Assembly: GCA_016647705.1 (NCBI GenBank)
Contig: CM028335.1
Coordinates: 8,838,818-8,902,817, forward strand
DNA from: Eucommia ulmoides
Lineage: Eukaryota > Streptophyta > Magnoliopsida > Garryales > Eucommiaceae
Length of the DNA stretch: 64,000 nt
Direction: 5' to 3'
Shown piece by piece: positions 6,882 through 64,000 of the stretch. The position numbers and the translations under genes are program-made. How positions within the stretch are numbered: the first letter of the stretch is position 1; each line of letters starts with the position of its first letter. The notes under the pieces are model-generated. The model ran no database searches, was not told the DNA's origin, and saw only the letters and a list, made by a program, of their open reading frames with translations.

Positions 6882-8400
6882 ATAGTTCCTAAGTGGTACC
6901 TAGTGTAAGTTGGTCTGATCTTGTTAGTCGGGACAATTTTAGTTCCTTTTGAAATCCAAATTTGTCTGTAGTTAGATATTTTAGCAAAACATCTTTGAAC
7001 AGTATGCCCGACAATATTACATTTGAAACATATAACAAGACCCCTAGTTTCAGAAAAGAATTTATGAAAATGTTTTTGCTTAAGATTTTTCTGAAATTCA
7101 ATACCGGCCTTATCAAAAATACCACGTGAACTTCCCAACAGTATTTTTAAGTTATTCTCATCGCCGGTGAATTTCAGAACTATTGAATGTAAATCTGACA
7201 TCTAGGATTTCAATTCAATGTTTTCAGATTCATAGTCCATTACTTGCTTGTTTAATGAGTTAATTGTACTTTGAAGGGCATTTATTTTAGAATACTAGTT
7301 TTTATAATCATGCATAAATTCTTGATATATATCAAACAATTCATCAAAATCTAAAGGACAAGAGCTTAAACATTTAGTTACCTCATCACTAGTGGCATTA
7401 GCGCAAGCATGGACGATTCTTCACTTTCTGATTTTTTTGAACTACTTAATTCGATATCATCCCCAGTAGCTTTCATGAATTTTTTCTTACTTTTTTTTCC
7501 ATTTCTTTTTCTACTTTTTTTGCTTCTATTTTTTCTTATCCTTCTTCAGTTTGAGACAATCGGTTTGAAAATAATTAGTCTTGTGACAGTTGTAACATTC
7601 CATATTGTTCATGTTGAAATTCCTATTTTCACGGAATGTACATCGAGTCATCCCTCTGAAATTCTTCGTGAGAAGCGGCACATCTTTTTCTTGATCACTG
7701 TCGAGACTCGCATCATCACTGTCATCATCTTCTTTAGATTTTTGAACCTTTAGTTCGAAGTATTTATTTTTGCTATTCTCAGTGTCATTCTCATATCCTC
7801 GAATTGTCATTTCATGCGTCATTAGGTTTCCAATGAGGTCATTAATTTCGTATTTTGTGAGATCCTTAGCTTCCTCAATCATGGTGACCTTCGGCTCCCA
7901 CACTTTAGTTAAAGATCTCATAATCTTTCAAACTTTGTCTTCCGTGGAGTACGGCTTTCTGAGTTAGCTCAAATGGTTACAAATGTTATTGAATCGAGTG
8001 TACATCTTTTGAATCGATTCTGCTTCCCATTCTGAACAATTTAAAGTGGCGAATTAAGGCATTGATTTTTGACTACTTCACTTAACTTGTCCTTTCATGG
8101 GTAACCTACAATTTGTCCCACATTTTATTCGCTGATCTACAACATGAAACCATGGAATATTCATTAGAATCTAAAGAGAAAAATAAAATATTAATAGCCT
8201 GAGAAATTATAGAAAGCTTCTGCTTATCAGAAGCGGTGAACTGCTATTTCTTCTTGACAACTTCATTTTCCTTAGGAACAAATGGATCATCCTTGATTGC
8301 TAGCCACACGTATAATTTGTGGCTTGAAGGAATATAATCTTTCTGTCTCTCCAGAATGCATAATTTTCACCTGCAAATAAAGGTAGTCAGTGCATAGACT
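6878..8400 (-). pseudogene. copia gag remnant with two zinc-knuckle blocks (element 1)
   Basis: Two broken gag frames. At 7921-7526 an acidic, coiled-coil-like stretch ends in CYNCHKTNYFQTDC, a CCHC knuckle whose His has become Tyr, followed by lysine-rich LKKDKKK. At 7201-6878 a second knuckle, CFKCNIVGHTVQRC, is intact (CX2CX4HX4C). Two spaced knuckles are typical of SIRE/Maximus gag. The 5' part of gag (7922 to about 8400) is full of stops. Confidence 0.8.
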
Positions 8401-15366: not shown

Positions 15367-16403
15367 TTACAACTCTTTAGTGTATTTAGCTTGGTTTATG
15401 AATATCTTTTCTTTGTTTTGCTTAATTTGTAACCCAAGAAAAAAATTCAGTTCGCCCATCATGCTCATCTCAAATTCGTCATGCATTATCTTAGCAAACT
15501 CTTGGTAAAGATCCTCATTAGTAGATTCAAAAATAATATCATCAACAAAAACTTGTACTAATAGGATATCAGAATCAGTTTGCTTAACAATTAGAGTTAT
15601 ATCACAAATACCTCTTCGAAAATCATTTTCGATCAAATATCGGCTAAGTCTCTCATACCAAGCTCTAGGAGTTTGTTTGTGCTCATACAAAGTCTTACAA
15701 AGTTTAAATACATAATCGGGAAATTTATCACTTTCAAATCTTGGGGGTTATTCCACATAAACGTTTTCCGCTAGAAACCCATTTAGAAATGCACTCATAA
15801 CATCCATTTGATATAACTTAAAATTACGTGAGCATTCAAAAGCGAGTAACATTCTAATTACTTCTAGTCTAGCCACAGGAGCATAGGTTTCGTCATAATC
15901 AATTCGTTCCTCTTGATTATAACCTTATGCTACTAATTTTGTTTTGTTTCTAATTACCATACTAGATTCATCATTTTTATTTCAAAAAATCCATTTTTTT
16001 TCCTAATAACTGGATAAAATTTCGACCTAGGAATTGGAGACCATACATTGTTTTGCTCAAATTGAACTAACTCATCTTGCATTGCGGAAATCCAAGATTC
16101 ATTAGTTAACGCCTCATTTATATTTTTAGGAATTTGAGATAAGAAAGAAAGATTAATTATATCTCTAAGAGAGGAACGAGTACTTACACCTTTTTCGAAG
16201 TTATTGATGATTTCTTTTACCGAATGTCCCGGTACTGTCTTTATAGAACGCGGTAAAGTCGAAGCCTTTTCCTTAACCTCTTCCTCTTTTTTAAGACTCC
16301 ATAGTTGCATTTTCACCTTGGTTTTGGTTATTTGGAATACTTGTATCATCATCATCCAAAACCTTTCTCGACAAAAATGGGTCAGCTTCCTCAAAAACAA
16401 CAT
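15367..16403 (-). pseudogene. copia reverse transcriptase remnant (element 2)
   Basis: The frame 15690-15367 contains QTPRAWYERLSRYL, the catalytic box FVDDIIF and LGLQIKQ, all diagnostic for copia RT. The frame 16403-15954 covers the linker before RT and its first block (ESWISAMQDELVQFEQNNVW). The part between (about 15690-15950) is in other frames with stops. Confidence 0.87.
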
Positions 16404-17423
16404 GCATAGTTTTTTCTACTACTAATGTACGTTTATTACAAACTCTATAGGCTTTACGGTTAGTAGCATATCCAAAGAAAATCCCATAATCAGATTTAGC
16501 ATCAAATTTACTAAGATTATCCTTGTCATTCAAAATAAAACATTTAAATCCAAATACTTTAAAATAGGAAATATTATGAGTCTTACTATTCCAGATTTGA
16601 ACCCTTTACGAATCAATACTTGATTCACCATATGGCAAGTTGTATTTACTGCTTCGGCCCAAAAGAATATAGGTAAACAATTTTCATTAAGCATCATTTT
16701 GGCCATCTCTTGAAGCGTTATGTTCTTCCATACTACACCATTTTGTTGTGGTGATCTTGGTGCAGAAATATTATGAGCATAACCATGCTCATCACAGTAA
16801 CTAATCACATCATCATTCCTAAACTCTTTTCCTCTGTCACTACGAATGTTAATAATAGAACATTGCTTCTCATTCTGAACAAGTTTACAAAATTTAACAA
16901 ATACAGAAACAACCTCACTTTTCTTAGCAATGAAAAATACACAGGTAAGTCTAGAATAATCATCAACTTTTATGAAAGCATAAAACTTACCACCAAGATT
17001 AGCAACAGAGTTTGGACCAAACAAATCAATATGCAATAATTCAAGACATCTAGATGTGGATGTGTGCAACTTTTTCTTAAATGATGATCTTGCCTACTTT
17101 CCTAATTGACATGCATTACATACTTTATCTTTCACAAATTTCAAATCAGGTAGGCCACGTACAAGATTATTCTTAGATAAATTATAAATTAAATCCATAT
17201 TAGAAGGCCCAAGTATCCTATGCCACAACCAACTATTTTCATATAAAGCAGTCAAACAAGATAAATTTTGAGAAGTAAAATCATTAAATGAGCAGGTATA
17301 AACATTCTCAAAACGTGATGCAACTAACAAGATACTATTATCATGATCATTCTTAATAATGCTTTGATCATGATCAAATATAACATTATAGCCCTCGTCA
17401 CATACTTGACTAATACTAAACAA
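16291..17423 (-). pseudogene. copia integrase with GAG-pre-integrase finger (element 2)
   Basis: The frame 17423-17094 carries the pre-integrase finger. It reads SWLWHRILGPSN, where the second zinc-ligand His (GH) is replaced by Pro, with CNACQLGK intact. The frame 17069-16530 holds the integrase core: KVDDYSRLT, NIRSDRGKEF and SPQQNGVVWKN. Usually the last block reads VVERKN; here E and R are replaced by one W, which removes the catalytic Glu of the DDE triad. The frame 16533-16291 holds the C-terminal GKDF-like region. Confidence 0.88.
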
Positions 17424-21959: not shown

Positions 21960-23575
21960 GCCCATTTTGTTGTTTTTAATTTGCAAATTGTGTTATTTCT
22001 GTTGCTGCTGCTGTTTCGACGGTATTGAGTCATTGGTGATGATGATTCACGCTCCCTTGAGCAGATCTGAGCCATTGTTTGCCCTCACAGGTAACATTTT
22101 CTCTCAATTTTCTTGTGTTTCTGTTACTGCTGTTGTTTCGACGGTATTGAGTCGGTGATAATGATTCACGCTCCCTTGAGCAGATCTGAGCCATTGTTTG
22201 CCCTTACAGGTAAATTTGGTTTCTATTTCTATTTTAGTTTCCATTTCTGTTGCTGCTGTTGTTTCGACGGTATTGAGTCGTTAGTGATGATGATTCACGC
22301 TCCCTTGAGCAGATCTGAGCCATTGTTTGCCCTCATAGGTAACATTATTCACCCTAGTTCATTTTGTGTTTGCTGCCTGAGCGAAAACACTCAGAACTCT
22401 ATGGTTTGTTTCAAACTAATTTTTTTTATTTCATTTTTGAGTTTATATTGCTATATCTTGTCAGTCTCTCTCTCTCATTCACTTTGTGTGGCTTTATTGT
22501 GTGTCCTCCCTTCAGTGTATTGATTTTTTTGCTGTGATACTTATCTAACCACTTAACCATATTTAAGGCCCATGGAAGTAAAAAAATTTGACAAGAGTAT
22601 GGAATTATCACTCAATGCATTACCATTCAAAGGGTCAATAATCAATATCTAACAAATGTGCTTCTCAAAATCAATTCTAAGGTGTAATCCTGATAGTGTA
22701 ATGTGGTTTTTTGTGATTATGAATAATTGAATACCGTCTATTCTGTTGCTGCTGCTGTTGCTGTTTCCGTTTCTGTTGCTGCTTCTGTTTATGTTTGCTG
22801 TTGCTGTTTCTGTTTTGATGGTATTGAGTCGTTGATGATGATGATTCACACTCCCTTGAGCAGATCTGAGTTATTGTTTGCCCTCACAAGTAACATTTTA
22901 TCTCAATTTTCTTGTGTTTTTGTTGCTGCTGCTGTTTCGACGGTATTGAATCATTGGTGATGATGATTCACGCTCTCTTGAGCAGATCTGAGCCATTGTT
23001 TGCCCTCACAGGTAAATTTGGTTTTTGTTTCTGTTTCTATTTTGGTTTCTATTTTTGTTGCTGCTGCTATTTCGACGGTATTGAGTCGTTGGTGATGATG
23101 ATTCACGCTCCCTTGAGCATATCTGAGCCATTGTTTGCCCTCACAGGTAACATTGTTCACCCCAGTTCCTTTTGTGTTTGTTGCCTGAGCGAAAAAACTC
23201 AGAACTCTATGGTTTGTTTCAAACTGATATTTTTTATTTTATTTTTGAGTTTATATTGCTATATCTTGTTAGTCTCTCTCTCTCATTCACTTTGTGTGGC
23301 TTCATTGTGTGTCTTCCCTTCAGTGTATTGATTTTTTTGCTGTGATATTTATCTAACCACTGAATCATATTTAAGGCCCATGGAAGCAAAAAAAATTGAC
23401 AGAGTATGGAATTGTCACTCAATGCATTACCCCTCAAAGGGTTAATGATCAATATCTGACAAATGTGCTTCTCAAAATCAATGCTAAGGTATGATCCTAA
23501 TAGTGTAATGTGGTTTGTTTATGATTATGAATAATTGAATATCGTCTATTCTGTTGCTGTTGTTGTTGCTGTTGT
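21960..23575 (+). repeat. 808-bp tandem duplication of three ~90-bp subunits each
   Basis: A six-fold subunit (gtttcgacggtattgagtcg, then gatgattcacgctccc, then gagccattgtttgccctcac) starts near 22013, 22136, 22261, 22813, 22936 and 23073. Copies 1-3 and 4-6 sit in two 808-bp units that share a long tail (gtgtttg at 22366 and 23174). Most subunits end cacag|gtaa, a perfect splice-donor context. Cys-rich frames seen here (for example 22113-22523 and 22912-23331) come from tgctgctgctgt runs and are probably not proteins. Confidence 0.85.
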
Positions 23576-46760: not shown

Positions 46761-46768
46761 TATAAATA
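46761..46768 (+). promoter_or_regulatory. TATA box of the RNase T2 gene
   Basis: tataaata, 46 bases before the ATG at 46814, preceded by a ttcttc microsatellite. The same ttcttcttcttgctccttgc phrase recurs downstream within the signal-peptide codons. Confidence 0.6.
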
Positions 46769-46813: not shown

Positions 46814-48105
46814 ATGACTTCCCTGTTCTTCTTCTTCTTGCTCCTTGCATCCTTGCTTCAAGTGGTGTTGTATGCTATGATGTCCCATTATTGTCCAATA
46901 CCTCTGACTCCACCATTGCCACCTATGCTGGCCTACCATTACAACCATTTTCAACTTGTCAAAACATGGATTTCTGCTTTCTGTCATCTGAATCAATGGA
47001 ACGGAAGCCTCACTCTCATTCCTAATTTCACTACGCACGGCATGTGGCCGGCAGATTCTCGCGGCGTAAAATACAAGATTTTTCTAAGTTGGTAAGTGCT
47101 ATTATGATTTTTGCCTCTCTTAAAATCAGTTCAATTCAATTTCTTCTGGGTTAGCAGTTGTCAATTTTTTTCTAATTTGGTAACTGATATTCTCCTGTTC
47201 TTCTTCCTCCTTGCTTTCACGGATGTACTTTTTAAGTAATAGTTTTATGGATGATTTCCAACAATTGATGATCTTATTCATGTTTGAAATTGTTGAAAAA
47301 TCAACACTTGAGGCCCTAAACTGAAAATAAAGATGTAATACAAGGGTAAAAATGTAGTCTTTCAGAATTATTTAAAAAAACTAAGTCAACATAAATCTAT
47401 GATTTACCTTAAAGGTATAATATTCCAGTCATAGAAAAATAAACAAATTATATAAATCTCAAGAGAATAAATTGATAAAAATAATTATTAAAGTATAGAA
47501 TATGAATTCGTGAAATTTGTGGTTGAAATTGTTGAAATCATCACTTGGTGTACTAAAGTAAAAACAAAGGTAAAGTTAAATGGAAAAAAATTTAGTTTTA
47601 TAAATATATCTCTTCAAATATTTTGTAATATTGTTTTCTTCTCTCTCTTGAAATGCACAGCTTTCGCATGAAACTTTGCCTGGCCTTCTTGAAAAAGCTT
47701 GGCCATCGATTCGAGCTAATTTTGAGGGGAAGGATTTCTGGAAACATGAATGGGAAAAACATGGGATTTGTTCGGCTCAGAAGCTGGACTGCGTAACCTA
47801 TTTTCAAATGGTGCTCTACCAAACAAACAAGCGGGATTTGTTGGATATATTGATGAGAGCCCATATTACGCCGCGGAATGACGTGGCTTATCGAAAGGTA
47901 GATATTCGGGCCACCATCCAACGGGTGACCGGGATGGATGTACGTCTCATGTAAATCCTTTGAAACCAGCAACGCGACGCATGTTTTGTTATACGAGATT
48001 TTCTTGTGCGTTGATTTCAATGGAATCAGTGACATATCTTGTCCGGCAGCCGCGACTTCTGGGAGAGGTTGCGGAGGGAAAGCTATCATCTTCCTTCCCT
48101 CCTAG
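46814..48105 (+). pseudogene. RNase T2 family gene, S-RNase-like architecture, damaged
   Basis: RNase T2 enzymes are secreted endoribonucleases cutting RNA via 2',3'-cyclic phosphates; S-RNases are the pistil determinants of gametophytic self-incompatibility. Exon 1 (46814-47091) encodes a hydrophobic signal peptide (LFFFFLLLASLL), the C1-like HFQLVKTW and active site CAS I NFTTHGMWP with catalytic His. A single intron (gtaagt at 47092, gcacag ending 47660) lies between CAS I and CAS II, where S-RNases have theirs. Exon 2 encodes LPGLLEKAWPSI, CAS II FWKHEWEKHGICS with His, Glu, Lys and His intact, and a Cys-rich tail (YEIFLCVDFNGISDISC) ending at TAG 48103. Three defects are visible. The obvious splice junction is out of phase. 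A stop at 47952 precedes the tail, which continues in another frame. The second Cys of the first disulphide is missing (FCHLNQW). An unusual splice site could rescue the first. Total homology is about 240 codons. Confidence 0.85.
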
Positions 48106-49855
48106 TTAATTAGAAATTAATAATTATATATATGCTCTGGATTATGTAGAAAATAAATATTAGAACTTAATCGATGGTTTGTTGTACTAAATTAGAACTT
48201 AATCGATGGTGGGTTCTTAACTTGTTCAACTCTGGATTATGTAGAAAATATAATATATGTTAATATGTTGTTCTCTGTTCTTATGTGCATGTGTTTAATT
48301 GGTTCCCCTGTTTGAAGAAAATATATTATATGAAGAAAATATTATATAAGCGACCGCGCGGTGGTCTCTCTGTTTGTGATTTCCCCCTCTCTCCACGAGC
48401 TGATATCCAAGCCATGCTGCCGCTGTGACACATGGCATTTCAATCTAATTTTTTTTCCCTAAGTTGATTTTCGTGAATTTAAAAAAAAAAAATATCCAAG
48501 TTAAAATAGAAAGTCCCAAGGTTCGCGAATCAATTTAAGTTCTAAAATTGTAATTGAAAATTTTAAGGGCTAAATTAAAATTTTAAAATAATGAATTAAA
48601 ATTACTGGATTTCAATTAATGTTTCGAAAGTCCAATAAAGTTGAAGTATATCAAATTAAGGATTTTAAATCATAATTGGACTCTTTTGAATGTCGATTGA
48701 AAATTCATTACAATTGAAGAAGTTTTAAGACTAAATTAAAATATTTAAAAATTAATTTTGGCATTGAGGTTCAAAATTAAACTTTCAAAAGGTTTAATTA
48801 ATATCATACCAAGTTCAACGGAAGTTATGTAATTCCCTTTAGATTTTGAGTAGACTAATTGGATCAATTCTTCAACTTGGAAAGTATAGGAACTTAATTG
48901 GAATTTCTAACAATAAAAAGGGTCAATTGAGGCTCCAATAATTAGAGTCTTCGAGAATAAAATCAATTTTAGAAACAATCGAATCGATCTCCAATTGAGA
49001 TTCCAAAAGTCAATGAAAATTCTAGGGCTAAAATTGAAATTTTGCAAAAAAAAATTGACTTTCAATTTAGTTTGATCAAATTGGAAAAAAAAATTAAAGG
49101 GTCTCATTCTCAAATGGGTAAAGGCATTTTCTAAAACAAATGTATTATTTGCAAATTAAAAAAATATAATATTTTTTTCCTCGTATTCCTGCTGTTATTT
49201 GGCTTATTTTTAAAGTCTTAAAAAAAGATAGGCTTATTTTTTATGTTGCCAAAAATCCCTTGCACGTGCAAAGAGTTTCTCACGTGCTAAAAACCTTCAC
49301 CACTTCCTTCTTTAACCTGTAGAACTTATTAGTTCTTGAGGAGAACACCGGTGTGGTGTTGGCCGAAAAATCTCCGGCATGAGAATAAGTAAGTCTGTTT
49401 ATGATGAAAGCTCAAACACTAGAATCAATCATAAAAATAACATGTTGATACATTCCCTTTATATAGACTTTCTCAGATTATGTTGTTTCGTTGGTGATGA
49501 TGCCTTTTCCATGACCCTTTCTTGTTAACATGGGATATGGCAACAATCTTCTCCCATTAAACATAGGATGTAGCGGTAATTTCGTAACTGATGTACGGTT
49601 AGTCAGTTGAAACATTCCTCATGCATGATGGACATGGAGGTTATGGGCTGACCTATTCTTAGCCTTGTTACCATGAGTTCTGATGACCTATTGTTGGGCC
49701 TTTTTGCGAGGTCTGCTTTGTTTAGGTATTGGGTCGTTACGGCTTCTTCCCTGGTGGGCTGGTATATTCAGCCTAGAATGGCTATCGGGTTGGTTATTCC
49801 AAGTCGGATTATTAACCCGATCTGACCCACCAAAGCCCTCAAGCCTTCAATAGTC
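48106..49855. other. Intergenic; AT-rich repeat-like DNA
   Basis: 48480-49100 has recurring phrases (aattgaaattttaa, ctaaattaaaattt, tcaattgaggctcc) typical of old gypsy LTR DNA, but no ends were found. 49330-49850 has a more mixed composition and leads into the transposon-type ORF at 49856. No host gene was recognised. Confidence 0.4.
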
Positions 49856-52334
49856 ATGGGCATGAGTTTTTCCCATATCATTTCCCTTCTTGACTTTCAT
49901 GACGATTCAGAAAAGAGAGATGAAGATCACCTCTCTTATTCGTATAAGTTCTTGTCTTTTTCCAATCTTTTGATTATGTTGTTTGTTCGCATTATTCTTT
50001 TGATTTTTGTTGCTCTATTTGAAATGTCGTTGAGTCCATCAAACAGTCTGACTGAGGTTGGTTCGTCGTTGAACCCCTTATGGAGCAAGTGACGACTGCC
50101 CATGCTTCTCAGTCCATCAATTTCTCAGTTAACTAGGGAAATCATGGTGCGAGTTATGTCCCAAAGGAATGACTTGATCCATTCTAAGAACAGTATGGTA
50201 TTCATTCGTTCATTTCTATCAGGGTTCCATCCGAAGACGAATGTCCGTATAGTACCGAAGAGGATGAAATATGCCTCTTTGTGTGGATATTCGAATATGG
50301 ACTCACACTTCCTTTCAATCCTTTATTTCACAATCTTTTTCGTTAATTAGAGATTACTCCTACCCAATTAACCCCCAATAGCTTCCGTTAGATCATGGGA
50401 ACCATTTCTCTTTCTCGAGTGCGTAATGTTCTCCTTACTGTAGATATGATTAGGATTATTAGTTCCCTCAAATTTCTTTCTGAACTTAGAAGATTGTATT
50501 ATTCCATCATTAAGAGGTTTTCATTTCTTACTGAATTTTTTGCTGCGGTGAGAGGAGATTGGCCAAGACAGTACCTCTTCTTCAAGGGTAATTAAGAGTT
50601 TTCTCCTAATGAAATAGGGTAGTCTCCAGTTGTGTTGAAGCATTTTAACTTTCTAAGTAATTTTCCTTTACTTATGCTTCATTTGCAATTGAATTTATGA
50701 ATTTTGCTACAATGGTCTTGATGTCTTCTTGGGTTGTCTTATGTAAGTGAAGAAGCCTGCAAAAGTCTTCGTCTTCCATCCAAGGTTGAGAATGAATTAA
50801 GGAGGCTGCTAGTTCCAAAAAGAAAGTCCTACAAGGTTCTTGGTTCCCACCATTTTATTCTGCCAACAATGGATGAGTCCAAATTGAACCGCCTGGAAGA
50901 GTTACAAATCAGGAAGAAGATGATGAGGCCTGCTAAGATACTCTTTGGTCTATCTAGGCAGTCAACACCTCAACTTGCTGCCTAGGTTGCTACCAGACCT
51001 TCAGTTCCTCCTATTGTTTAACCAATTGTCTGCTAGGCCTGCAGTTTAGCCTACTGTTCAGCCTGCTACAGTTTGACTAGTGGTCGCTCATCCTTATCTC
51101 ATTCTTTTTGAAGATTCTGACTCTGATGAAGTTTCTCAACCGTTGAGCAGACATAGACATGGGATTGTCTCTGTGCCGATTCCTTCAGCCCAAGTTCCAA
51201 TTCCCACAGAGATTCAGGGGTTGGAACTTGTCACCCGTGCAGCTGGGGTCTCTGTTCACCGCGCTACAGAGCATGTTTCATCAAGCAAGCAACCACTTTC
51301 CCCTACAACAATAGCTTCCAGTCAGGGGATGTCTATTTCACTAAGCAACCGTGGTATATCTCGTGAGCAAATGTGCCACTTTTTAAAGGAGATAGGCCCC
51401 TCAATTCCTAACTGCTAGAAGATCTTCCACAACGCCATCAAGACCTTTTCGAGTGGTCTTGGGAGAAGAGTTGGGCCAAGATTGGGAGTCGTAGCAGGGC
51501 TGAGCTCTTCAAGACCCTTGTCTGTGCACTCCTTCAAGTAATTTCCCTTATTTTCAATAAGTTTTGGATTTCTTGAGTTGTTGCGTTGGTTTTTGATTAG
51601 TTACCACTATTTTATAGAGCATCCATATCTCATCTACGTTGGTAGGAAGCTCTAATAATGTGATTGAGCATGCATCAGTTAACTGAATTCAGTCGCTTGG
51701 AAGAGGACCTTCGTGTTCTTCAAGAACATAAAGTCCCTTTTGAGACCGACTTGGCACTAACGAGGTCATCTCAAGGGAAGTTTGAAATTGAGTTGTGCGC
51801 TGCCAATGCTCAACATGAAGTATTGCGGAAGAGTAACGAGATGTTCTTTACTGAATGCAGTAGGTTTCAAGAAGAAAACTATGCTCTGAGGAAAAAGAGC
51901 TTTGCTTTGAAGAAAGAGATCTCTGTTCTGAAGGGAGAGGTCAGCTCAATACGGTCAGTGGTAAATCTCCTAAGGACTGAATTTTAAGCCAGGGACGCTA
52001 CCCTCCAGGCCAAAGAGGTTGTTCTTCAGGCCAAAGAAGATGCCCTCCAACGCCTAAAAAACAAGAAGAGTTAAATCTCAGTTGAATCGAACCAGGAGCA
52101 GCTGAGGTCTGCCAACCAAGCGCAGGCGGTGAAAAGGCTAATAGTAGAAATGGCGGCAAGGGCAAAGGAGAATGAAGAGACGATCAACCAATTTTGCGTA
52201 GAATTTAACTCTAGGTCAAAGAACATTTAATTGGGGGGCTATTGCTACTACCAAGTGTTAAGTGAACACCCAGAGGTTGATTTCTCCTTCCTATAGACTG
52301 AGCTGGAGGAAGAAGTAGAAGGAGAAGGTGTTGA

Positions 52335-52569
52335 GAGTTGTTTACTAAATAAATATTTTTTAAAAAAAATTTACTGACAGTAAGCCACTTTTATCTTATT
52401 TACCAAAGGCGAGAATTCCAGCCTTGTGAAGGCCGGGATAAAAAAAAAAAAAATTATTTTTATTTTTATTTTTTTGATCCCGGCCTTGTGAAGGCTAGGA
52501 TAAAAATAAAATAAAAATTTAAAGGTGTTTTGATCTCGGCCTTGTGAAGGCCGGGATCAACCAAAAAAT

Positions 52570-52633
<64 letters not shown>

Positions 52634-54416
52634 TTATTTTTTTGGCCCAATAAATTTTTAAAGTTTTTGGTAACTTTGAGTTGATTAACGGTAGTCTATC
52701 GATATTTTAAATAAATTTAATTTTTTTGTGCATAAATTACGTTCAAAACACTCCATAATACTTTTTACAATACTAAAAACGGATAAGTGGATGAATTTTT
52801 AAAAAATCGCCAAAGTTGACCATATGAGCTATTTTGATAACGACAGAATTTTTTTCGACAATTTAAAATTAATAAAAGATTGTATGTCCGTAACAGAAAT
52901 GAACCAAATTTTTTGTATATAAAGTATGTTCATAACACTACATAACAAAACTTAGAATACTAAAAATGGACTAGTGAATAATTTTTAAATAATCGTCAAA
53001 GTTGGTCGGATGAGTTGTTTCGATGACGATGCACTTTTTTTTTAAAACTTTGAGTTAACAAAAAATGGTCGTCTATCCGTAACAAAAATGAACCTGATTT
53101 TTTTGTAGACAAACTACGTTCATAACGCTAAATAATAAAATCGAGAATACCAAAAACGGATTAGTAAATATATCGTGTTGAGAGAAGAGAAAACTTATGT
53201 AAAATAATAGAAAAAGTTTGGATTGACATAACTTGGTGCTCGGTAGTCTGTTTGGGGCGATTTGTTTTTTGATTTCAGGTATTTTTTCGAGATCTAGATG
53301 TGACAAACTACTGTAGGCGGTTTGGTACAGTATTTTTTCAAATAAAGTCCGTTTTCATCTTCAATTTTGGATTTGAAGTGTTGGGTGACTAAATTTGTAA
53401 TAATCGTCGCGAGTGTGCATCTTGTCCTGTTGGTAAAATTGAAATCTTTAAAAGCTAGAGTGATGACTCAGATCAGACCCAACTTTAAAAAAAAAAAAAT
53501 CGCCCCCAACGGACCACTGAGCGCAAAGTTATATCTATCCAAACTTTAAAGAACAATATAGTATTTTTGAAACGTTGAAAAATAATAAAATGTTGTAGCA
53601 ATAATCATTATTTAAAAATTATTCACTAATCCGTTTTTTGTATTCTCGATTTTATTATTTAGCGTTATGAACGTAGTTTGTCTATAAAAAAATCAGGTTC
53701 ATTTCTATTACGGATAGACAACAATTTTTTGTTAACTCAAAATTTTCAAAAAATTGTATCGTCATCGAAATAACTCATCTGACAAATTTTGACGATTATT
53801 TAAAAATTATTTACTAGTCCGTTTTTAGTGTTCTAAGTTTTGTTATGTAGTGTTATGAACATACTTTATATACAAAAAATTTGGTTTATTTCTTTTACGG
53901 ACATGCAATCTTTTGTTAATTCTAAATTGTCGAAAAATATTCTGCCGTTATCAAAACAGCTCATGTGGTTAACTTTGGCGATTTTTTTAAAATTCATCCA
54001 CTTGTCCGTTTTTAGTGTTGTAAAAGAATTATGAAGTGTTTTGACCGTAATTTATGTAAAAAAAATTAGATTTATTTAAAATATCGATAGACCACCGTTA
54101 ATTAACTCAAAGTTGCTGAAAATTTTAAAAATTTATTGGACAAAATATATATATATATATATATATATTTTGTGTTGGTTGATCCCGACCTTCACAAGGC
54201 CGGGATCAAAACACCTTTTAAAAAAAATAAAATAAAAAAATTGATCCCGGCCTTGTGAAGGCTGGATAAAAAAACCTTAAAATATTTTATTTATTTATTT
54301 ATTTTTTTAATCCCGACCTTCACAAAGTCGGAATTCTCGCCTTTCGTAAATAAGATAAAAGTAACATACTATCAGTAATTTTTTATTAAAAAAAATATTT
54401 ATTTAGTAAACAACTC
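52335..54416. mobile_element. Foldback element 1 (Mutator-like), 2.1 kb
   Basis: Nearly the whole element is one inverted repeat. The left end gagttgtttactaaataaat pairs with the right end atttatttagtaaacaactc. The arms continue inward through the same order of blocks to about 53275 and 53495, leaving a loop of about 220 bp. A 10-bp target duplication with one mismatch (aaggtgttga 52325-52334, aaagtgttga 54417-54426) points to the Mutator superfamily. The outer arm parts carry repeated ggccttgtgaaggccgggat blocks, themselves near-palindromes, next to TA microsatellites (52571-52628 and 54147-54168). No coding was found. Confidence 0.9.
52735..53165. repeat. ~180-bp tandem units in the foldback arm
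   Basis: The phrase gttcataacactacataac recurs as gttcaaaacactccataat (52740), gttcataacactacat (about 52929) and gttcataacgctaaat (about 53109), spaced about 180-190 bp. Each is followed by a block with aaaacggat(t)ag, tcgccaaagttg and a poly(A/T) run. The right arm (53600-54110) has the same units inverted. Confidence 0.75.
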
Positions 54417-54568
54417 AAAGTGTTGATGCTGAAGGAGGAGCACATTGTACTGGTGGTGAAGTACTTCCATCAGAAACCCTCACATTAGACCCCACAAATA
54501 TCTCCAATTTGCATTTCAGACCATCGTCAACAGCACTCTCTTCATCGCCCTAAGCTCCTCCACCCACC

Positions 54569-55602
54569 ATGAATCACCTCCACCGCCACCACCATCGACC
54601 GCCGTCCGTTGACCACCGCACCACCGCCGGATTCTTCGACAGGCCACGTCAATCTTCACCTCCCACCTCTTCATCGTTCTCTTCCTCTCTTTTCTCGTCC
54701 TCACCTTCCGCTCCAACGTGGAGAACGGCACCCTTTACCTCACTTCCTTCATCGACCGCAATCCGTCCCTCAGATCCCTCCTCTCCCGCGTTGAAATTTC
54801 TGGCCGGACCCACCTCCAACAGCACAGCCAGAGCCGCCACCTCCGCCCCCCCCTTCTTCATCTCTCCCGCATCGGCACCGTCGACGACGACTTCTTCTCC
54901 GGAGACGACGAAACCGCTCTTTTTTCGGTTCAAACCCCAAACCCCAACCCAACAGAACATTCGTGGTGCGTGAATGATCTGTTGGGCAAATACAGATCCT
55001 TTTCCGGCACCATTTGGGACGATTTAAATTTAGGGCTGAAATGTCTATCCGGCTTCATTCTCATGAAATGGGCAGTGAGAGACGCACTCACACAGCTGCT
55101 GGGCATTTGGTTCTTCGGCGAAATCGAGGATCAATACGCATTCTTCAAGATCTTCGTGAGTTTAAAGCTGATGCCATTATCCATTGCTTCTCCATGGATT
55201 CGAGGATTCAAGAGGGAGAGCGCAGGATTTCTATTCTCCTGGTTCTTGTTCGATTATTTAGTTGCCTTCATTTTTGCAGTCGATGCTTGGGTTTCAATCG
55301 TCGATTCCAGGAAGAGCGGGAGAGAAGTTCTAAAAGAAGGCTGTCATTTGCTGTCGACATTGTTGAATCCTGCCATTAACATCAAGTGCTTGGAAGGAGT
55401 TGTTTGTGGGTCATTGATGAGATTATTACTGAGTGGATTGTTTGGAAAATTGTTTGCCTCCGCCTTTCAATCGGTAATGGAGGTTTATTTCATGGTGGCA
55501 TGGCTCGTGTTCTACTTAGCTGCAAGATACAAGGAGGCTGCATCTACTGGGAGGACATTCGGATCGAGAGAATTGGAGGGCTTTCTTGAAGGTTTTAGAT
55601 GA
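54569..55602 (+). CDS. Multi-pass membrane protein of unknown function, N-terminal frameshift
   Basis: An intron-less, GC-richer gene. The long frame (from about 54613 to stop 55600-55602) encodes ATSIFTSHLFIVLFLSFLVL (first membrane segment) then TFRSNVENGTLYLTSFIDRN. A variable hydrophilic stretch follows with the acidic TVDDDFFSGDDE. The C-terminal half has several membrane segments (GFLFSWFLFDYLVAFIFAVD; LLLSGLFGKLFASA; VMEVYFMVAWLVFYLAARY). The frame has no ATG near its start; TGA at 54610 closes it. The best ATG (54569, MNHLHRHHHRPPSVDHRTT) is in another frame, so a one-base shift lies between about 54613 and 54640. This is either a mutation or a sequence error in a C-rich stretch. The overall look matches a conserved, uncharacterised plant membrane-protein family. 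It is the best-preserved host gene in the window. Confidence 0.65.
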
Positions 55603-57893
55603 TATTGAATGTGATGTGCTTTGATTTTGAACAAAAGAGAGAAATTCAACACTGCCACAGTTCAATGAAAAATCACCAGCAAGGTGAAAGGTGTTGTATG
55701 TACTTCTTTTTAATCAAGGGAATGCTTGATGTGTGTATACTTTGTTTCTTGTGTGTGTGTGTTTCTGTGTCTTGCTGCCTTAATATTGTGATTTTTAGCT
55801 AATTGATGGTAGTTTTATGAGGTTAGTTTGTAAAAATCAGCTGCAATAATGGTGAGATATATTCTTCTTTAATTCATTGTTTTCATTTTTCCGTCTTTGA
55901 TTTGGGATTGTAATGACTTGCCTCTGGCTTTGCTCTTTTATTCATTCACTACGGGTAAATATCTTCGATCTAGAACTGTTCAGCCTTTGTTGCTGCTAGC
56001 TCTGCCACTGGGTTGACTTAAACTACTGCCATTATTTGGTACTCACCCTCCACTGGAACTCTTAACGATCTATCTCGAATGAGGGAAAGAGGCCTATATC
56101 CTATCCATGCCAAGTTCCATATCTGGTATTTTGAATGTGTTAAGCAACGATTCCCCAGTCGGTCAATCTGCGAGTCCAAAATCTCTGGAATTCATTTCTC
56201 TCTGGGGGTGGCTTGATGTTATAGTGTAGCCTGTAACAGAATTATATGGACACAAATCTATGGACCAAAACAAAATGATTAACTTCTTCATTGGGGCCTA
56301 TGGGTATCCACCCTCTTCAATAGAAGGAAGGGTTCGGGCTATTGAGAATTTGCGACCCCATAGGTCAAAATGTGAGAACTCTGGTTTTGGATTAAGGTAG
56401 TGTTTGAGAACATAGAATTGAAGTTGCGGAATTGAAATTAGAAATGAACTCAGATACTGTTTGGTTTTTGGAATTGGAGCCTCGGAATTGGTATTAGAAA
56501 CGAAAGTGCATAAAAATCTAAAAATCTGCAGTATTCATCACGTAAATTTTACGAGTTCTACATGTGTACATTTTTAATTCTATTTCCGATACGGTCTCTT
56601 TTAGTTTTTATTTTCTTTTTTAATTTTCTTCAGATTATTATTAAAATTATTTAAAAAAAAAAAAGAAGAAGAGGGTTTTTATTAGATTAAAAAATAAATG
56701 ATGCAGAACATTGTGCTTGTTAGGAACACTAGTGTAACGATTTTATTTCATCTCAACCCTTAACTCGTAAACATAATTATACATACTTTTACTCAAGAGG
56801 TATTAGTCTGACTGGCAATGAGAGGTACCCATTTTCTTGTCAATCGGGGTTTGATTATCCTGAGGAGCAATCCGAAAATTAAATCATGAAGTTAATCTTG
56901 AATGCACCTGTAGGGGTTGTTCCTTTAAAATCGTCCGGTGAGATAATTAGTTGAGGTGCGCATAAATTGACCCGTACACACTTTACCATATATATATATA
57001 TATATATATATATAAAGAATTATACACACTTTTTAGATTAAATTATTTGAAATAATTATATAATCTCAGTTAAAAAAAAAAAGCGTTAGTTCAAATAGAG
57101 AGGGAAGACATGGGCCGATGCTGGGCTTAGACTGTCAAGGATCCTATTTTTGTGTTTTGGGGAGGACCCAATAGTTATTTCCTTTGAAGGCGCAACACAA
57201 AAGTGAAAAGGATTTAGTAAAAACAAATAAAGCAAAGCATCCAAATGGTTGGTGGGATGAAAAAAGAGAAAAATAAAATAAAATAAGAGGATAATATTTT
57301 TAGTTATTGTGAAAATTATTTTTTTTCTAATATTATTCGGTCAGAAAAGAAAAATAAAAGGAGAAAAAATGGTACACTTTAATATAATTTACTATTTTAT
57401 CCTCATATATTATAAAATAAATTAAAAATCAAGGGTATAATTGTGATTTAAACCTGGCACACATCCCATCCATTTGAAATACTAAGAATATTCTCTACCA
57501 TTTTCATAACAATTGAGACACCCTTATTTTTTCAGTTTGGCTATCTAAGACATTCCATAACATATTTTTGTAAAAAATACACTTGCCACACAATAGATTT
57601 TTTATTTTTTATTTTCTAATTTTTACATTTTCTCTCTGTTGTTTTCTACACTTTTTTTTTTTTTTTTTTCTTATATTCAATATTTTTTATTGTATTTTTT
57701 TATATTTATTTTCATTTTGTATGAAGAAAATAGAAAAATAGAATTTAAAAAAAATATAGAATTAAAAAAAGGGAAAAATAAAACAACAAAATATTTTTTG
57801 TTTTTAAATTTAAAGTTTTCCTATTTTTGTTTCGTTTTTGTTTTTGTTTTATATTATTCACTTTCTAGTTTTTTATTTTAATTTTTTTCATAC

Positions 57894-57904
<11 letters not shown>
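55603..57904. other. Intergenic; no gene recognised
   Basis: 55603-55870 is probably the 3' UTR of the membrane-protein gene (TG-rich, ending aataatggtgagatat). 56395-56520 (gtgtttgagaacatagaattg, tgtttggtttttggaattgg) resembles the edge of a common non-autonomous DNA transposon. A TA run lies at 56990-57014, and poly(T)- and poly(A)-rich DNA fills 57600-57880. No supported coding region. Confidence 0.4.
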
Positions 57905-57964
<60 letters not shown>

Positions 57965-58585
57965 AACCAAAAAAATATCATTTAAAAACTTAATTTCTGA
58001 AAACAATAGGGGTGAAACTTATTTACAAGGCTGAAGTAAAACGCACTTTCGATTTGCGTTTTTCTAAAAACGCATTTGCGAAATGCGGATTCAACGGGCG
58101 GGAAGTCGAGGTGAAAACGCAAAAGGGATTTGCGTTTCTTTAAAAACGCATTTCCCTTTTGCGCTTTCCAAAACAGAAAAAAAAAAAAATAAAATAAAAA
58201 TTAATAGTGTGAAAAATGCAGAACCATTTTGTATTTTTCAAAAAAAAAAAAGAGTAAGCTTGTGTCACTGCAGTGCGTTTTTTTTTTTTTTTTCAAGAGT
58301 GCAGTGCGGTTTTGCCATGCATTTTTTTTTTCAAGAGCGTTCTTGTTTTTTTTTTTTTTTTTTCAAGAGCGTTTTGCTTTTTTTCACCATTTTCCCACCG
58401 TTTTCTTCATTCATATTTAGCTTAGAAGAACCATTTTGTGATTAGTGTGAAATGATTCCAAAAAAAACGAAAATAATATATGCATTTTTTTTTTTAAAAA
58501 ATTATACTAATTGAAATGAAAATAAAATTACATGTGAATATATAATACATTTCTGCAAATTATAATATATGTCGTCATTGGGTTT

Positions 58586-58975
58586 CTATGTACCACACCC
58601 CCTACGTTTGATGTTTCTCCGTTGCCGTCGTAAAGGAAGTGGAAGTTCTTCGGTGTTATCTGTTTGAAGATGATCAACTTGAGTAATGTGTCCCAAGTCC
58701 ATAGTAGATGGAGATGTTGGTTCCTCCACGATGGGCAACAAATGTTCATCATTTCGCTCCCATGGTACCGGCGACACGCGTCTTTGAATTCCTCTGGGTA
58801 CACCATGTGTCACACTAGGAACAGATATTGAGCTCGATGATGGAGCATCCATTATCGAGGTGACAAATGTGTTACCCACTGACAATCCGCAGGTAGATGG
58901 TCCGGCACTGGCGTCGTCATCTAATGGCGGATTTCCTACGCGTTCCTGTCCCGAACTCGGCATCTGGTGTGGCAA
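58586..58975 (-). pseudogene. Plant-mobile-domain-like protein tail, left arm
   Basis: A minus-strand frame of 129 aa starting MPHQMPSSG, with DDDASAGPSTCG, MDAPSSSSISVPSVTHGVPR, WERNDEHLLPIVEEPT and the end LPLRRQRRNIKRRGCGT plus stop. The Ser/Pro-rich linker and the final RRRGCGT-like tail resemble C-termini of transposon-associated plant mobile domain proteins (often labelled PP7 long form homologues). The mobile domain itself is absent. Compared with the right arm it lacks about 16 codons (MDNFFSDYDTELDVSY). Confidence 0.5.
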
Positions 58976-59308
58976 CTGCCGACGAGAGGCACGAGAATAA
59001 ATATCGTGCGATAAGTGTGTAACCCGTTCAAAATCTCTTGGTTATCGATAGATGGTCCGACACTGGCGTTGTTATGCAACGGCAGATCTCTTACGCATTC
59101 CTATCCCGGACTCGGCATTTGGTGTGGCAACTGCCGATGATAGGCACGGGAGCAAATGTCGTGCGATAAGTGTGTAACCCGTTTAAGACAACCAGGAGAT
59201 TTTGAACGGGTTACACACTTATCGCACGATATTTGTTCTCGTGCCTATCGTCGGCAGTTGCCACACTAGATGCCGAGTCCGGGATAGGAACGCGTAGGAG
59301 ATCCGCCG

Positions 59309-59755
59309 TTGGATGACGACGCCAGTGCCGGACCATCTACCTACGGGATGGATAATTTCTTTTCAGATTATGATACCGAACTGGATGTCAGTTACGGATT
59401 GTCAGTGGGTGACACATTTGTCACCCGGATGATGGATGCTCCATCATCGAGCTCAGTATCTGTTCCTAGTATGACACATGGTATACCCAGAGGAATTCAA
59501 AGACGCGTGTCGCCGGTACCATGGAGCGAAATGATTAACATTTGTTACCCATCGTGGAGGAACCAACATATCCATCTACTATGGACTTGGGACACATTAC
59601 TCAAGTTGATCATCTTCAGACAGATGACACCGAAGAACTTCCACTTCCTTTACGGCGGCAACGGAGAAACATCAAACGTAGGGGGTGTGGTACATAGAAA
59701 CCCAATGACGACATGTATTATAATTTGTAGAAATATATTATATATTCACATGTAA
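59309..59755 (+). pseudogene. Plant-mobile-domain-like protein tail, right arm
   Basis: Mirror copy of 58586-58975: MDDDASAGPSTYGMDNFFSD, then LSVGDTFVTRMMDAPSSSS, then RRVSPVPW. A one-base loss near 59522 (tggagcgaaatg against tgggagcgaaatg in the left arm) shifts the frame. The RRQRRNIKRRGCGT tail is therefore only in another frame (to about 59697), and the long open frame after it is an artefact. Confidence 0.5.
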
Positions 59756-60388
59756 TTTTATTTTCATTTCAATTAGTGTAATTTGTTTTTTAAAAAAAAC
59801 GCATATATTATTTTTGTTTTTTTTGGAATCATTTTACACTAATCACAAAATGGTTCTTCTAAGCCAAATATGAATAAGGAAAACGGTGGAAAAATGGCCA
59901 AAAAAAGCAAAACGCTCTTGAAAAAAAAAAGAAAAAACGCTCTTGAAAAAAAATAAAAATGCATGGCAAAACCGCACTGCACTCTTGAAAAAAAAAAATG
60001 CATGGCAAAACCGCATTGCGCTCTTGAAAAAAAAAAAAGAAAAACGCACTGCAGTGACACATGCTTACTCTTTTTTTTTTTTTTTGAAAAACGCAGAACG
60101 TTTCTGCGTTTTTAAAAAACGCAGATGCTTTCAGCGTTTTTCACACTGTTAATTTTTTTTTTTGGAAAACGCAAAAGGGAAATGCGTTTTTAAAGAAACG
60201 AAAATGCCTTTTGCGTTTTCACCTCGACTTCCCGCTCGTTGAATCCGCATTTCGCAAATGCGTTTTTAGAAAAACGCAAATCGAAAGTGCGTTTTACTTC
60301 AACCTTGTAAATAAGTTTTACCCCTTTTCAGAAATTAAGTTTTTAAATGATATTTTTTTGGTTAAGAACTCTCTCTCTCTCTCTATAT

Positions 60389-61861
60389 ACAAAATATAGA
60401 ACAAAAGATAAAAAAATATAAACCCAAAAGGAAAGAAGGAGAGAGTTGAAAATAGAAAATAAAATCAAACAAAAAAAATTATAAAAGAATTTTTTTTTGT
60501 AACGTTTCAGGTATTATGAAAGAGTAATTCTATATGTATACTATTTTTTCTAGATATACACGACCAATATAAAAATAAATCTAAATGATTTTGAAATTAC
60601 TATTTTATCCTTTTTATATATTTTTTTTAATACTTTGTTTTCTAAAACATTCACTAACCCCCTTCTCCCTACCATTCAGTCCCCCAACCTCCGGTCCATG
60701 ATTGTGTTTCTCAGCCCCTATCACGTCCTCTTCTTCCTCATCCTTTTCCTCTTCTTCATCATCACCATCATCATCATCATCATCATCATCTTCTTCTTTT
60801 TCTTCTTTATTATTATTTTTTCTCTCCTTATATACAGAGACGGAGCGGGGGAGAGGGATAGAGAGAGACAGAAAATGAGAGAAGAAGAGGAAGAAAAGGA
60901 GAAGTTGGGGAACGAGTAATCACATGGAGAAGACAAGGCCGATGTGTTGTGTGTGGGGGGGGAGGGAGGACCGGGGAGGTTGTTAGAGGATTTAGAGGTG
61001 TTTGTGATATATATATGTTAATATTATGTATATGGTCTTTGGCCAACTAGATTAACCAAATCATAATACTACAAGAGAAACCTTAGTCACTTTCTATATA
61101 AACTCTTTGTATTTGTTTGTAAAATATATTTTTCTCATATATCAATACAAATGCTCCATGTTTTCCCAATATTCTGTCTCACAATTTTCGCAACCTTAAT
61201 TTTTTCAAGCTTCTGTGCGTCACTGCCCACAACTCTCAGTTTCACCATTACAAACCAACACTGCATTTATTGGTACCATCAACCTTGTTTTGTAAATACA
61301 AGTTCAATGGCATCAAAATAACCACAATCAGACACCAAACGCATTGTCATGCACCACCGTCAGTGCCACTGCCGTTGTTACCTTCATTGAGGTCTACCGG
61401 ATTATGTTTCGGTCTTCTGATCAAATTTGAATGGCAATGCATCTACCTATACATTAAGTATAATGCGCTGAAGTACAAATTTTCCCTCTTTTAATTTCAC
61501 TTTTAGTGGGGAAAAGGTGCTACAAGAGTTGGAAATTTACAAAAAGAACATTGACACATAAAAGCCAAAAAAACAAAAATCTAGAACGCGACTAACATCA
61601 TTTGAATGGCTCAAAATATATCAATGTAATTCAATTTAGAGAAAAATAATAATGTATCCAAATTAAAGAAAAAATAGCAGAATTTTCTTTAAGAAATATA
61701 CTAAATATTTGAGGGAGAAGTCAAATAAAAATTGAAAACAAATTTCTTTTTTGTATCGTCATTTAAATAAAAACAAATGAATCAAATTAAAACGGATTCC
61801 GAAGAAAACAAATCTTGAACAATCTAAGTCCAAATATTGAATTCTCAATCCGAGTTTACTC
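60389..61861. other. Intergenic with microsatellites, no gene recognised
   Basis: Contains a tca/atc microsatellite at 60760-60800, a purine-rich leader-like tract (60835-60915) and a G-run at 60954-60962. The short Ser/Pro or Met-run frames over these tracts are compositional. 61610-61715 is one half of a direct repeat whose other copy is at 63877-63983. Confidence 0.4.
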
Positions 61862-62449
61862 TAGGACTAGCAATTCGTGTAACGGGTCGTGTAACGATAA
61901 CACGATAAGAGCAAACATGAACACGACACGATAAACATATCGTGTCAGACTACCCAAACACAAACACGACAAGAAAATTATTGTGTCAACACAACATAAC
62001 ACGATAATATTTCGTGTCACACAAAAACACAAAACCTGTTAGGTAAACACGACACAATAAGATTAACTGATAAATTTCCATTACATATTAATCTATCCAT
62101 TACATGTTAACGACATGTTAAGTTGACAACATGTTAACAAAATTTATTTACAAAAAAATAATAATTATAATATTGGATAATTTGGGGGTGTAAAAATAAT
62201 TTATTAAATTAACGGGTAACCTATTAGATCTCAGGTTATCGTGTAACCTGAATACACGAAATTATTATCGTGTCTTATCGTGTAACCTATCGGGTTATGA
62301 GGTCAATCTGATAACCTGCACTATTTCTTATCGTGTTATCAGAACTGACACGATAACGACCCGATACCTGATAAGCAAAATCTAGATCTGATAATTTCGT
62401 ATCAGTCTCGTGTCGTGTCATCGTGTAAATGCCCATTTTGCCAGCCCTA
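61862..62449 (-). mobile_element. hAT-type MITE, copy B
   Basis: Same element as 44198-44821 in inverse orientation. The right end reversed reads TAGGGCTGGCAAAATGGGC and continues cattta(c)acgatgacac like copy A. Target duplication gtttactc / atttactc (61854-61861, 62450-62457), seven of eight matching. The right target copy overlaps the stop codon of the F-box pseudogene, so the MITE landed at its 3' end. Confidence 0.88.
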
Positions 62450-62451
62450 AT

Positions 62452-63230
62452 TTACTCCATTGATTGGAACATGTCTCTCTTTGTATTTAATAATATTGCA
62501 TATTTTAAATCCCATGTAATAATCTTCCCATGACTAAAGAACACTAATTTTGCCATAATAATGGAGTCATACCAAACCAAATTATCAAAAGTTTCAAGGA
62601 CAAATTGATAATCTTTCCAAAATCCAAGAAATATGTGTGGTTCTACACAATCTATAATTGCATGAATTTTTGCCCAACACTCATCTTCTTTCATTACCCA
62701 TATAGGAGATATCTCTGAGATTTGTCATTGGAAAAGAGCAATGGATTCATTGGCTTGTAAGGGTGGTAGCCGATGGTGGTACCTCTAGAAACTCCTCCCC
62801 ATATCAAATGTCAAAATATAAAGACCATCGTGGTGTCCAACCAATTCCAACCAATAATAAACACCCTCAACATACCTATTCAATGTAGATTGATACGTCA
62901 TACTGATTGAAGGAAAATCAAACCTAAAGTGTCTCCAAGAGTCACAATAGTGTTTGTACACCGAAAGAAGGAAAGGCATTGTCGCAGAGTTGGTTGTGAA
63001 TTTCCCTATCATCCCAAAAGAATTGAACCAAGACAACCTTATATAAAATACTAGATGGGTCTATTCCAAACCCGAAGTCAGAAGAGAGTAAATCCATGTA
63101 TGAGGTTGCATCATGATGTGGTGAGGAAGGGGGAAGGGGCTTAAACTTAGTTGGATTCCAAAATGCCAAATGATAAAGTTATTGATGACACATAATAAGT
63201 CGTTTAAGGGAACAATGACACAGGAACACG
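62452..63230 (-). pseudogene. F-box protein with FBA domain, SLF-like, broken
   Basis: Minus-strand frames together give the F-box-associated (FBA) substrate-binding region. From 63169: LAFWNPTKFKPLPPSSPHHD and FGFGIDPSSILYKVVLVQFF. After a frameshift near 62985: VYKHYCDSWRHF, RYVEGVYYWLE and YILTFDMGRSF, then a stop. From 62720: IWVMKEDECWAKIHAI, FLGFWKDYQFV and LVWYDS, ending MFQSME plus stop. Phrases such as ALWNP..FKPLPPS, DFGFG...DYKVV, SWR, IWVMKE..CW.K and LGFWK are shared with S-locus F-box (SLF/SFB) proteins and relatives, the pollen-side SCF subunits that recognise S-RNases. A frameshift near 63175 joins to LLCVINNFI; no F-box motif is visible upstream. At least two frameshifts and two stops make it a pseudogene. 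Confidence 0.82.
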
Positions 63231-64000
63231 AGATCATATTTCAATTGTAAGTTATATATCGAACAATTATGATAGGTTAAAATCCAACATACCCCATCAA
63301 AGATATTATAATTTCTCTAGATTTATCACCTAAATTTTAATTTGTATATAAAAGTTCGGGCTCTTATTATATATTCTTTTATTTTTCGTTTTTTTCCTAT
63401 ATAGAGAAACTTATTTTTCAATTGTTTTTATCATTTATGTTATATATTTTCAATTTCTTTCCTATTTATAGAGTGATTTGTTTTTTTTTACTTCTTATCA
63501 ATTTTGTTGTGAATACTTAATAATATTTTATTTAATATTGACAGTAATATCCAATGCAAATTCTACGTCAAGTTAACTTGATAAATTTAATATAATTGAT
63601 GTTAAATAAAAAACTAGAAAATTAGAATGACTAAAAAATAAAAAGAGCAAATTGTGGACAAATTTTTTTTGTGACTGGACGTGTTTCTTATGAGTCTTAA
63701 ATAATCTTTCAAAGCTTTTCTACCCCGGTTTTGTTCATTTGTTCAATGATGAATTCATGAATTAACCCTACCCCGGTTTAACATTTTGCTGCTTTAAGGT
63801 AATGCATTAACCCTATCCTGGTTTAACATTTTTGGAGCAATATATTTCAACAGAATCTATGAAATATTGTTAACCTCTCAAAATATAAAGATTTAATTCA
63901 ATTTGAGGAAATATAATATTAATGTGTCCAAATTAAAGAAAACATGCTAGAATTCTCTACAAATAAATATACTAAATACTGTGGGACAATTATTTATCAT
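63231..64000. other. AT-rich flank with a direct-repeat copy
   Basis: No coding found. 63745-63830 holds a short tandem phrase (attaaccctaccccggttta, and again attaaccctatcctggttta). 63877-63983 is the second copy of the block at 61610-61715 (shared cca aattaaagaaa and atactaaata). 63520-63650 resembles 31490-31620 (ttaatattgac...gataaatt...ttgatgttaa), suggesting a dispersed repeat. Confidence 0.45.

Follow-up and report, generated by a model that had tools for sequence, protein, structure and literature searches.

We analyzed a 64,000-nucleotide stretch of Eucommia ulmoides DNA (C11:8838818-8902817; henceforth the window), which carries the remains of a T2 ribonuclease (RNase) gene beside those of a gene with an F-box-associated (FBA) domain, a combination known from the S-locus of RNase-based self-incompatibility. 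Contig C11 is most likely chromosome 11 of this species, whose published assembly is haploid with 17 chromosomes (PMC7603500), and the genome that we searched comprises 946.7 Mb in 391 contigs. The first-pass annotation had taken the pair for a possible S-locus segment. Our analysis makes it likely that the two remnants come from a decaying S-like locus on C11, in which RNase and FBA-type F-box genes have multiplied.

The window RNase (46814-48102, plus strand) is a dead gene with a single intron between the active-site motifs CAS I and CAS II, as first annotated; the intact paralogs have an intron at the same place, in phase 0 (Table 1). Both motifs are kept, CAS I as FTTHGMWP and CAS II as FWKHEWEKHGIC. 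Exon 2, read from 47661, matches the Pfam family Ribonuclease_T2 over its cut-off (E 4.3e-20), while exon 1 falls under it (E 4.7e-4, 20.7 bits against a cut-off of 26) and has the S-RNase SF11 as its top match. Relative to the intact copies, exon 1 has lost 28 bp from its 3′ end, and another 2 bp are deleted before the C-terminal tail, which lies in another frame (47953-48102) and matches RNase NGR3 (E 0.0013).

The FBA remnant lies about 14 kb away on the opposite strand, so that the two genes are convergent, and its reading frame shifts at least twice and is cut by several stops. When translated across the breaks, with X in their place, it matches NCBIfam F_box_assoc_1 at E 3.4e-10 (first half 1.1e-6), and the phrases that the first-pass annotation had quoted as shared with S-locus F-box proteins (SLFs) are present. 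Pfam gave no match for it, whether in pieces or read through, and no F-box-associated Pfam match turned up among the 68 of 150 listed open reading frames (≥50 aa) that were scanned in the 43-64 kb part of the window. We looked for an N-terminal F-box at the remnant and saw none. Its paralog at C11:8.947 Mb combines an F-box (Pfam F-box E 1.2e-9) with an FBA domain (F_box_assoc_1, 81.2 bits), again with no Pfam FBA match. The first description of the pair as convergent and inactivated on both sides therefore holds. Its account of the intervening DNA as transposons is only partly right, because an open frame of the DUF7813 family lies there along with two large inverted-repeat elements. Another dead F-box copy follows just outside the window (C11:8902989-8903728, minus strand), in tandem with the remnant and 79% identical to it in DNA.

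Table 1. Features of the RNase and FBA pair and of the DNA between them (window positions).
Feature	Position	Strand	Remarks
TATA-like box TATAAATA	46761..46768	+	~46 bp 5′ of the RNase ATG; inferred from reading the sequence
T2 RNase pseudogene exon 1 (signal peptide, CAS I)	46814..47091	+	ATG at 46814
Single intron, GTAAGT ... CACAG	47092..47660	+	between CAS I and CAS II; phase 0 in intact paralogs
T2 RNase pseudogene exon 2 (CAS II with HEW)	47661..48102	+	TAA stop 47952-47954
Large inverted-repeat element	52353..54396	.	between RNase and FBA remnant
DUF7813 open frame (plant family of unknown function)	54613..55599	+	E 9e-144; between RNase and FBA remnant
Large inverted-repeat element	57944..60384	.	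between RNase and FBA remnant
FBA pseudogene remnant	~62455..63240	-	NCBIfam F_box_assoc_1

Both members of the pair belong to families that have expanded on C11. Exon 2 of the RNase has 37 matches in the genome, nine of them on C11. Seven of the nine C11 copies, including the window's, fall within 8.81-9.87 Mb and the remaining two lie at 5.39 and 13.97 Mb; for the six other copies of the main cluster, exon 2 identity is 66-99%. An intact two-exon frame is preserved in two of the eight C11 copies that were cut out, namely L003 (5.39 Mb) and L005 (8.81 Mb), with an intact copy ~77 kb from the window pair. The ratio of non-synonymous to synonymous change (dN/dS) between these two is 0.59. Among the others, exon 1 of L004 and L006 contains a stop, L008 has stops, and L007 is missing its ATG, its splice acceptor and a portion of exon 2. 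The 28-bp and 2-bp deletions are common to the window RNase and L002 (9.054 Mb; exon 2 99% identical), and the dead gene itself must therefore have been duplicated. A decayed duplicate, one of the options first offered for the pair, fits.

The FBA remnant in turn has 66 matching rows genome-wide, with ~18 F-box places (merged by eye), its own included, in C11:8.80-9.93 Mb. Further relatives lie on C11 at 5.45-5.49, 7.85, 13.95 and 20.70 Mb, and others on C4, C1, C17, C10 and C15. Among eight translated C11 copies, two are open over their full length from stop to stop (391 aa at 8.947 Mb and 389 aa at 9.844 Mb), the copy at 5.493 Mb is open over 362 aa, and five are broken (8.822, 5.456, 9.347, 9.064 and 20.698 Mb); an open copy lies ~46 kb from the window pair. 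No in-frame ATG was seen 5′ of the F-box in the open C11 genes, for which a 5′ exon is likely but was not found. Among the three open copies dN/dS is 0.31-0.47. Searches of the PDB for a solved SLF relative gave none for the C51 F-box (see below); for a C11 F-box they gave no more than a chance match and a pair of F-box stretches at E 0.08. About 200 kb before the cluster, a separate F-box-associated gene (C11:8603344-8604000, minus strand; 295 aa open) shows 44% identity to the C51 type and is closer to it than the cluster copies are.

We then asked how closely the two families are linked across the genome, taking 100 F_box_assoc_1 rows as the F-box rows and 100 kb from a T2 RNase cluster as the proximity limit. 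Thirty of the 100 rows lie within this limit, against 0.6 expected from the 0.6% of the genome that the clusters occupy. The RNase and F-box counts are lower bounds, since either search scored only its best candidates, and neighbors that are tandem duplicates are not independent. Scaffold C51 accounts for thirteen of the linked rows and the main C11 cluster for eight; five of the 30 are under the curated cut-off, and every row behind the links at C8 and C11:13.97 Mb is of this kind. Counted by cluster, seven of 47 F-box clusters touch an RNase cluster, compared with a mean of 0.37 and a maximum of 4 in 2000 random layouts drawn on a line without contig ends. Both comparisons rule out a chance neighborhood of RNase and F-box. 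From the RNase side, seven of the 17 clusters have an F_box_assoc_1 row within the limit: three on C11, and those of C51, C15, C4 and C8. The C4 site joins an RNase and an F-box of the C11 RNase and F-box clades ~1 kb apart, with a stop inside each. The RNase/F-box clustering on C11 is arranged as in an S- or S-like locus.

The features of the C11 RNases bear on which of these it is. By gene structure they fit class III, as judged against published criteria (PMC5598434, PMC4438004, PMC4451870): they have one intron, no amino acid pattern 4 and a basic isoelectric point (pI). S-RNases have one or two introns at a set position, and the C11 intron is placed there by alignment and phase, following the intron position 5 phase given in PMC5598434. 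Pattern 4 ([CG]P[QLRSTIK][DGIKNPSTVY]...) is absent by eye, its place reading WPSIRANFEGK or WPSIKANYKTK, where two of this genome's class I genes have CPSNDG and CPSSDS. The pI is 8.35 in L005 and 8.52 in L003, within the S-RNase range of 8-10, 8.25 for the window RNase pieces, and 8.81-9.35 for other cuts of these pieces. The HEW motif, located before C3, departs from the S-RNase pattern: it is present in the window RNase and in six of the seven other C11 copies cut out, the seventh (L008) reading RES. HEW is usual in S-like RNases, a trend rather than an absolute rule, since seven of 36 putative Coffea S-alleles carry it (PMC3120821).

Phylogenetic analysis was carried out with SF11 of Nicotiana as the sole S-RNase, the Pyrus S3-RNase (1iqq) and class II rows being left out, and the RNase trees have long branches. 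A 16-row T2 tree places the C11 copies together with the C4, C1 and C8 ones (85/91), sets five class I rows off as a separate clade (96/94) and joins the C51 RNase to SF11 (84/82); in the best trees this single S-RNase lies outside the group of the C11 RNases. The 11-row tree with C11 and C4 held together with SF11 and C51 gave p 0.046, and with C11, C4 and C17 so held p 0.25. Constraints on C11 alone, held with SF11 and C51 (p 9e-5) or with class I (p 6e-5), were strongly rejected, but they say little because they part the near relatives C11 and C4. One reading takes the C11 cluster itself for the S-locus of the species, perhaps a relict one, of which the window would be a dead portion. It would account for an RNase with many F-boxes, some of them open, over more than 1 Mb, for the single intron, the basic pI and the missing pattern 4, and it is compatible with the constraint that includes C17. 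We nonetheless consider it quite improbable, given the narrower constraint with C4, the retention of HEW, the seven RNase copies within 1.1 Mb, at odds with the usual S-RNase, and the better fit of C51 to an S-locus.

C51 is an unplaced scaffold of 1,075,000 bp with RNases at 112, 533 and 831 kb, which group with SF11, are 96.8-98.6% identical to one another and lack HEW. Of the genome's 100 F_box_assoc_1 rows it holds 14, and of its 18 FBA_1 rows nine. Thirteen of these 14 F-box-associated genes are 81-98% identical to the C51 gene used as query, and in six of the 14 the matched stretch has no stop. Partial or broken F-box remnants, 33-62% identical to the query, are also present, and therefore other F-box types would formerly have been there. 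In three C51 F-box copies dN/dS is 0.53-1.24 on few changes, with no sign of strong constraint. The C51 F-boxes may resemble SLFs. Canonical multi-SLF S-loci have one S-RNase with F-boxes of several types. C51 has three RNases and one multiplied F-box type, and for that reason we regard it as a candidate S-locus only, the best one seen in this genome and a better fit than C11. At C15:5.27-5.35 Mb lie decayed C51-type relatives (RNase pieces at 44-63%, an F-box at 77% with six stops), perhaps the home of C51 or its decayed duplicate. If an S-locus remains, it is more likely C51 than C11. The first proposal is partly supported and partly weakened: the linkage stands as in an S- or S-like locus, and C11 is probably a side copy rather than the locus itself.

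Several points count against a derivation of the C11 cluster from S-locus ancestry. First, RNases multiply without F-boxes too, since 10 of the 17 T2 clusters lack any F_box_assoc_1 row inside the 100-kb limit; one of these is the largest array, with 24 rows at C17:1.6-2.08 Mb. Second, holding C11 and C4 with class I was not rejected in the long-branched 11-row tree (p 0.061), nor was the wider grouping of C11, C4 and C17 with SF11 and C51 (p 0.25), and all rows outside class I come together on one side at 74/88 only; the trees thus decide neither for the first proposal nor for the grouping with class I or II that had been named as its refutation. Third, the solved structures nearest the intact C11 RNase are the S-like RNases NGR3, LE and NW. 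Fourth, in an 18-row F-box tree built without a reference SLF, the C11 copies group with those of C1, C17 and one of C4 (98/96) and the C51 type forms its own clade (100/99); the C11, C51, C4 and C10 F-boxes are united to the exclusion of three other FBA genes with no more than 81/81, on long branches. The C11 F-boxes are mostly ~30% identical to the C51 type, and with the 81/81 value a common S-locus origin of the two is therefore not shown.

Alternatively, an RNase and an F-box without S-locus history might have joined one duplicating tract, such as a defense or storage RNase cluster, with the likeness to an S-locus convergent. The C17 array without F-boxes and the class of the C11 RNases, which the trees leave unfixed, would suit such an origin. 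So would two published observations, namely that Eucommia class III RNases cluster mainly with the Petunia nectar proteins Phy3 and Phy4 (PMC7994793) and that T2 genes of classes I and II, too, commonly have F-box genes less than 2 Mb away (PMC5598434). We judge this origin unlikely, if less so than an S-locus on C11, as the RNase/F-box association recurs at C51, C15, C4 and C11, far over random.

We therefore favor a decayed S-like locus on C11, for which the following course may be envisaged. In an ancestral S-locus, the RNase would have destroyed pollen-tube RNA, with SCF ligases built on the F-box proteins removing non-self RNase; duplication of this RNase/F-box locus could have given rise to the C11 arrangement. 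A dioecious tree has no expected use for self-incompatibility. Extra RNase/F-box loci in such a lineage would have been free to multiply and decay, and the open C11 genes may retain a related enzyme and ligase chemistry for another purpose. More tentatively, this dioecious tree may still carry an S-locus, in the form of C51, with the decayed C15 relative and the RNase/F-box loci on C11 and C4 beside it. With equal reserve, the RNase/F-box system of such a C51 S-locus could have been lost only recently, or kept and put to new use, in a lineage where loss is expected.

The remainder of the window contains mobile and repetitive DNA. Pieces of a Copia-type retrotransposon (GAG-pre-integrase, RVT_2, integrase) lie at 6066-6899, 15367-15747 and 16530-17093 on the minus strand. 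On the plus strand, tandem arrays with 119- and 135-bp units occupy 21995-22351 and 22799-23154; both sit in a direct repeat of ~830 bp (90% alike), each part of which has an open frame of ~140 aa.

Relict S-loci serve to reconstruct the loss of self-incompatibility. A dioecious genome with several RNase/F-box loci, of which C51 has open genes on both sides, would allow a test of whether the pair decays or gains another use once the sexes are separate. The window itself is one dead copy, and C51 in a dioecious plant is the more interesting object. Among the papers listed in our literature search, none was seen to describe an S- or S-like locus for Eucommia; PMC11018665 names the genus twice, in connection with a reference gene. 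E. ulmoides is described as dioecious (PMC7994793; PMC10102601), and it is on this ground that a survey of its T2 genes (EURNS) took its class III members as non-S-RNases and set them aside (PMC7994793). A term search of the survey's text found no mention of F-box, SLF or S-locus. The C11 RNases resemble those class III genes in their two exons, class III-like character and expanded family, and depart from the survey's account (PMC7994793) in being seen beside F-box genes.

The S-RNase/SLF S-locus of Solanaceae, Plantaginaceae and Rosaceae shares with C11 the linkage of the two families, the single intron between CAS I and CAS II, the basic protein and the lack of pattern 4. It differs from C11 in that the latter has HEW, several similar RNases in one haplotype, a dioecious species as its bearer and an RNase apart from the SF11-RNase in the trees, which is not decisive. 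Another comparison is offered by the Antirrhinum S-like locus on chromosome 7, where two S-like SLFs, one of them a pseudogene, accompany an S-like RNase (PMC8774079). C11 resembles this type-1 S-like locus in that its T2 RNase, class III by structure and putatively so by clade, is linked to FBA F-box genes, putative SLFs of which some are dead, and in that the genome has a richer RNase/F-box locus at another site. The numbers differ: in place of one RNase and two F-boxes, C11 has seven RNase copies and ~18 F-box places.

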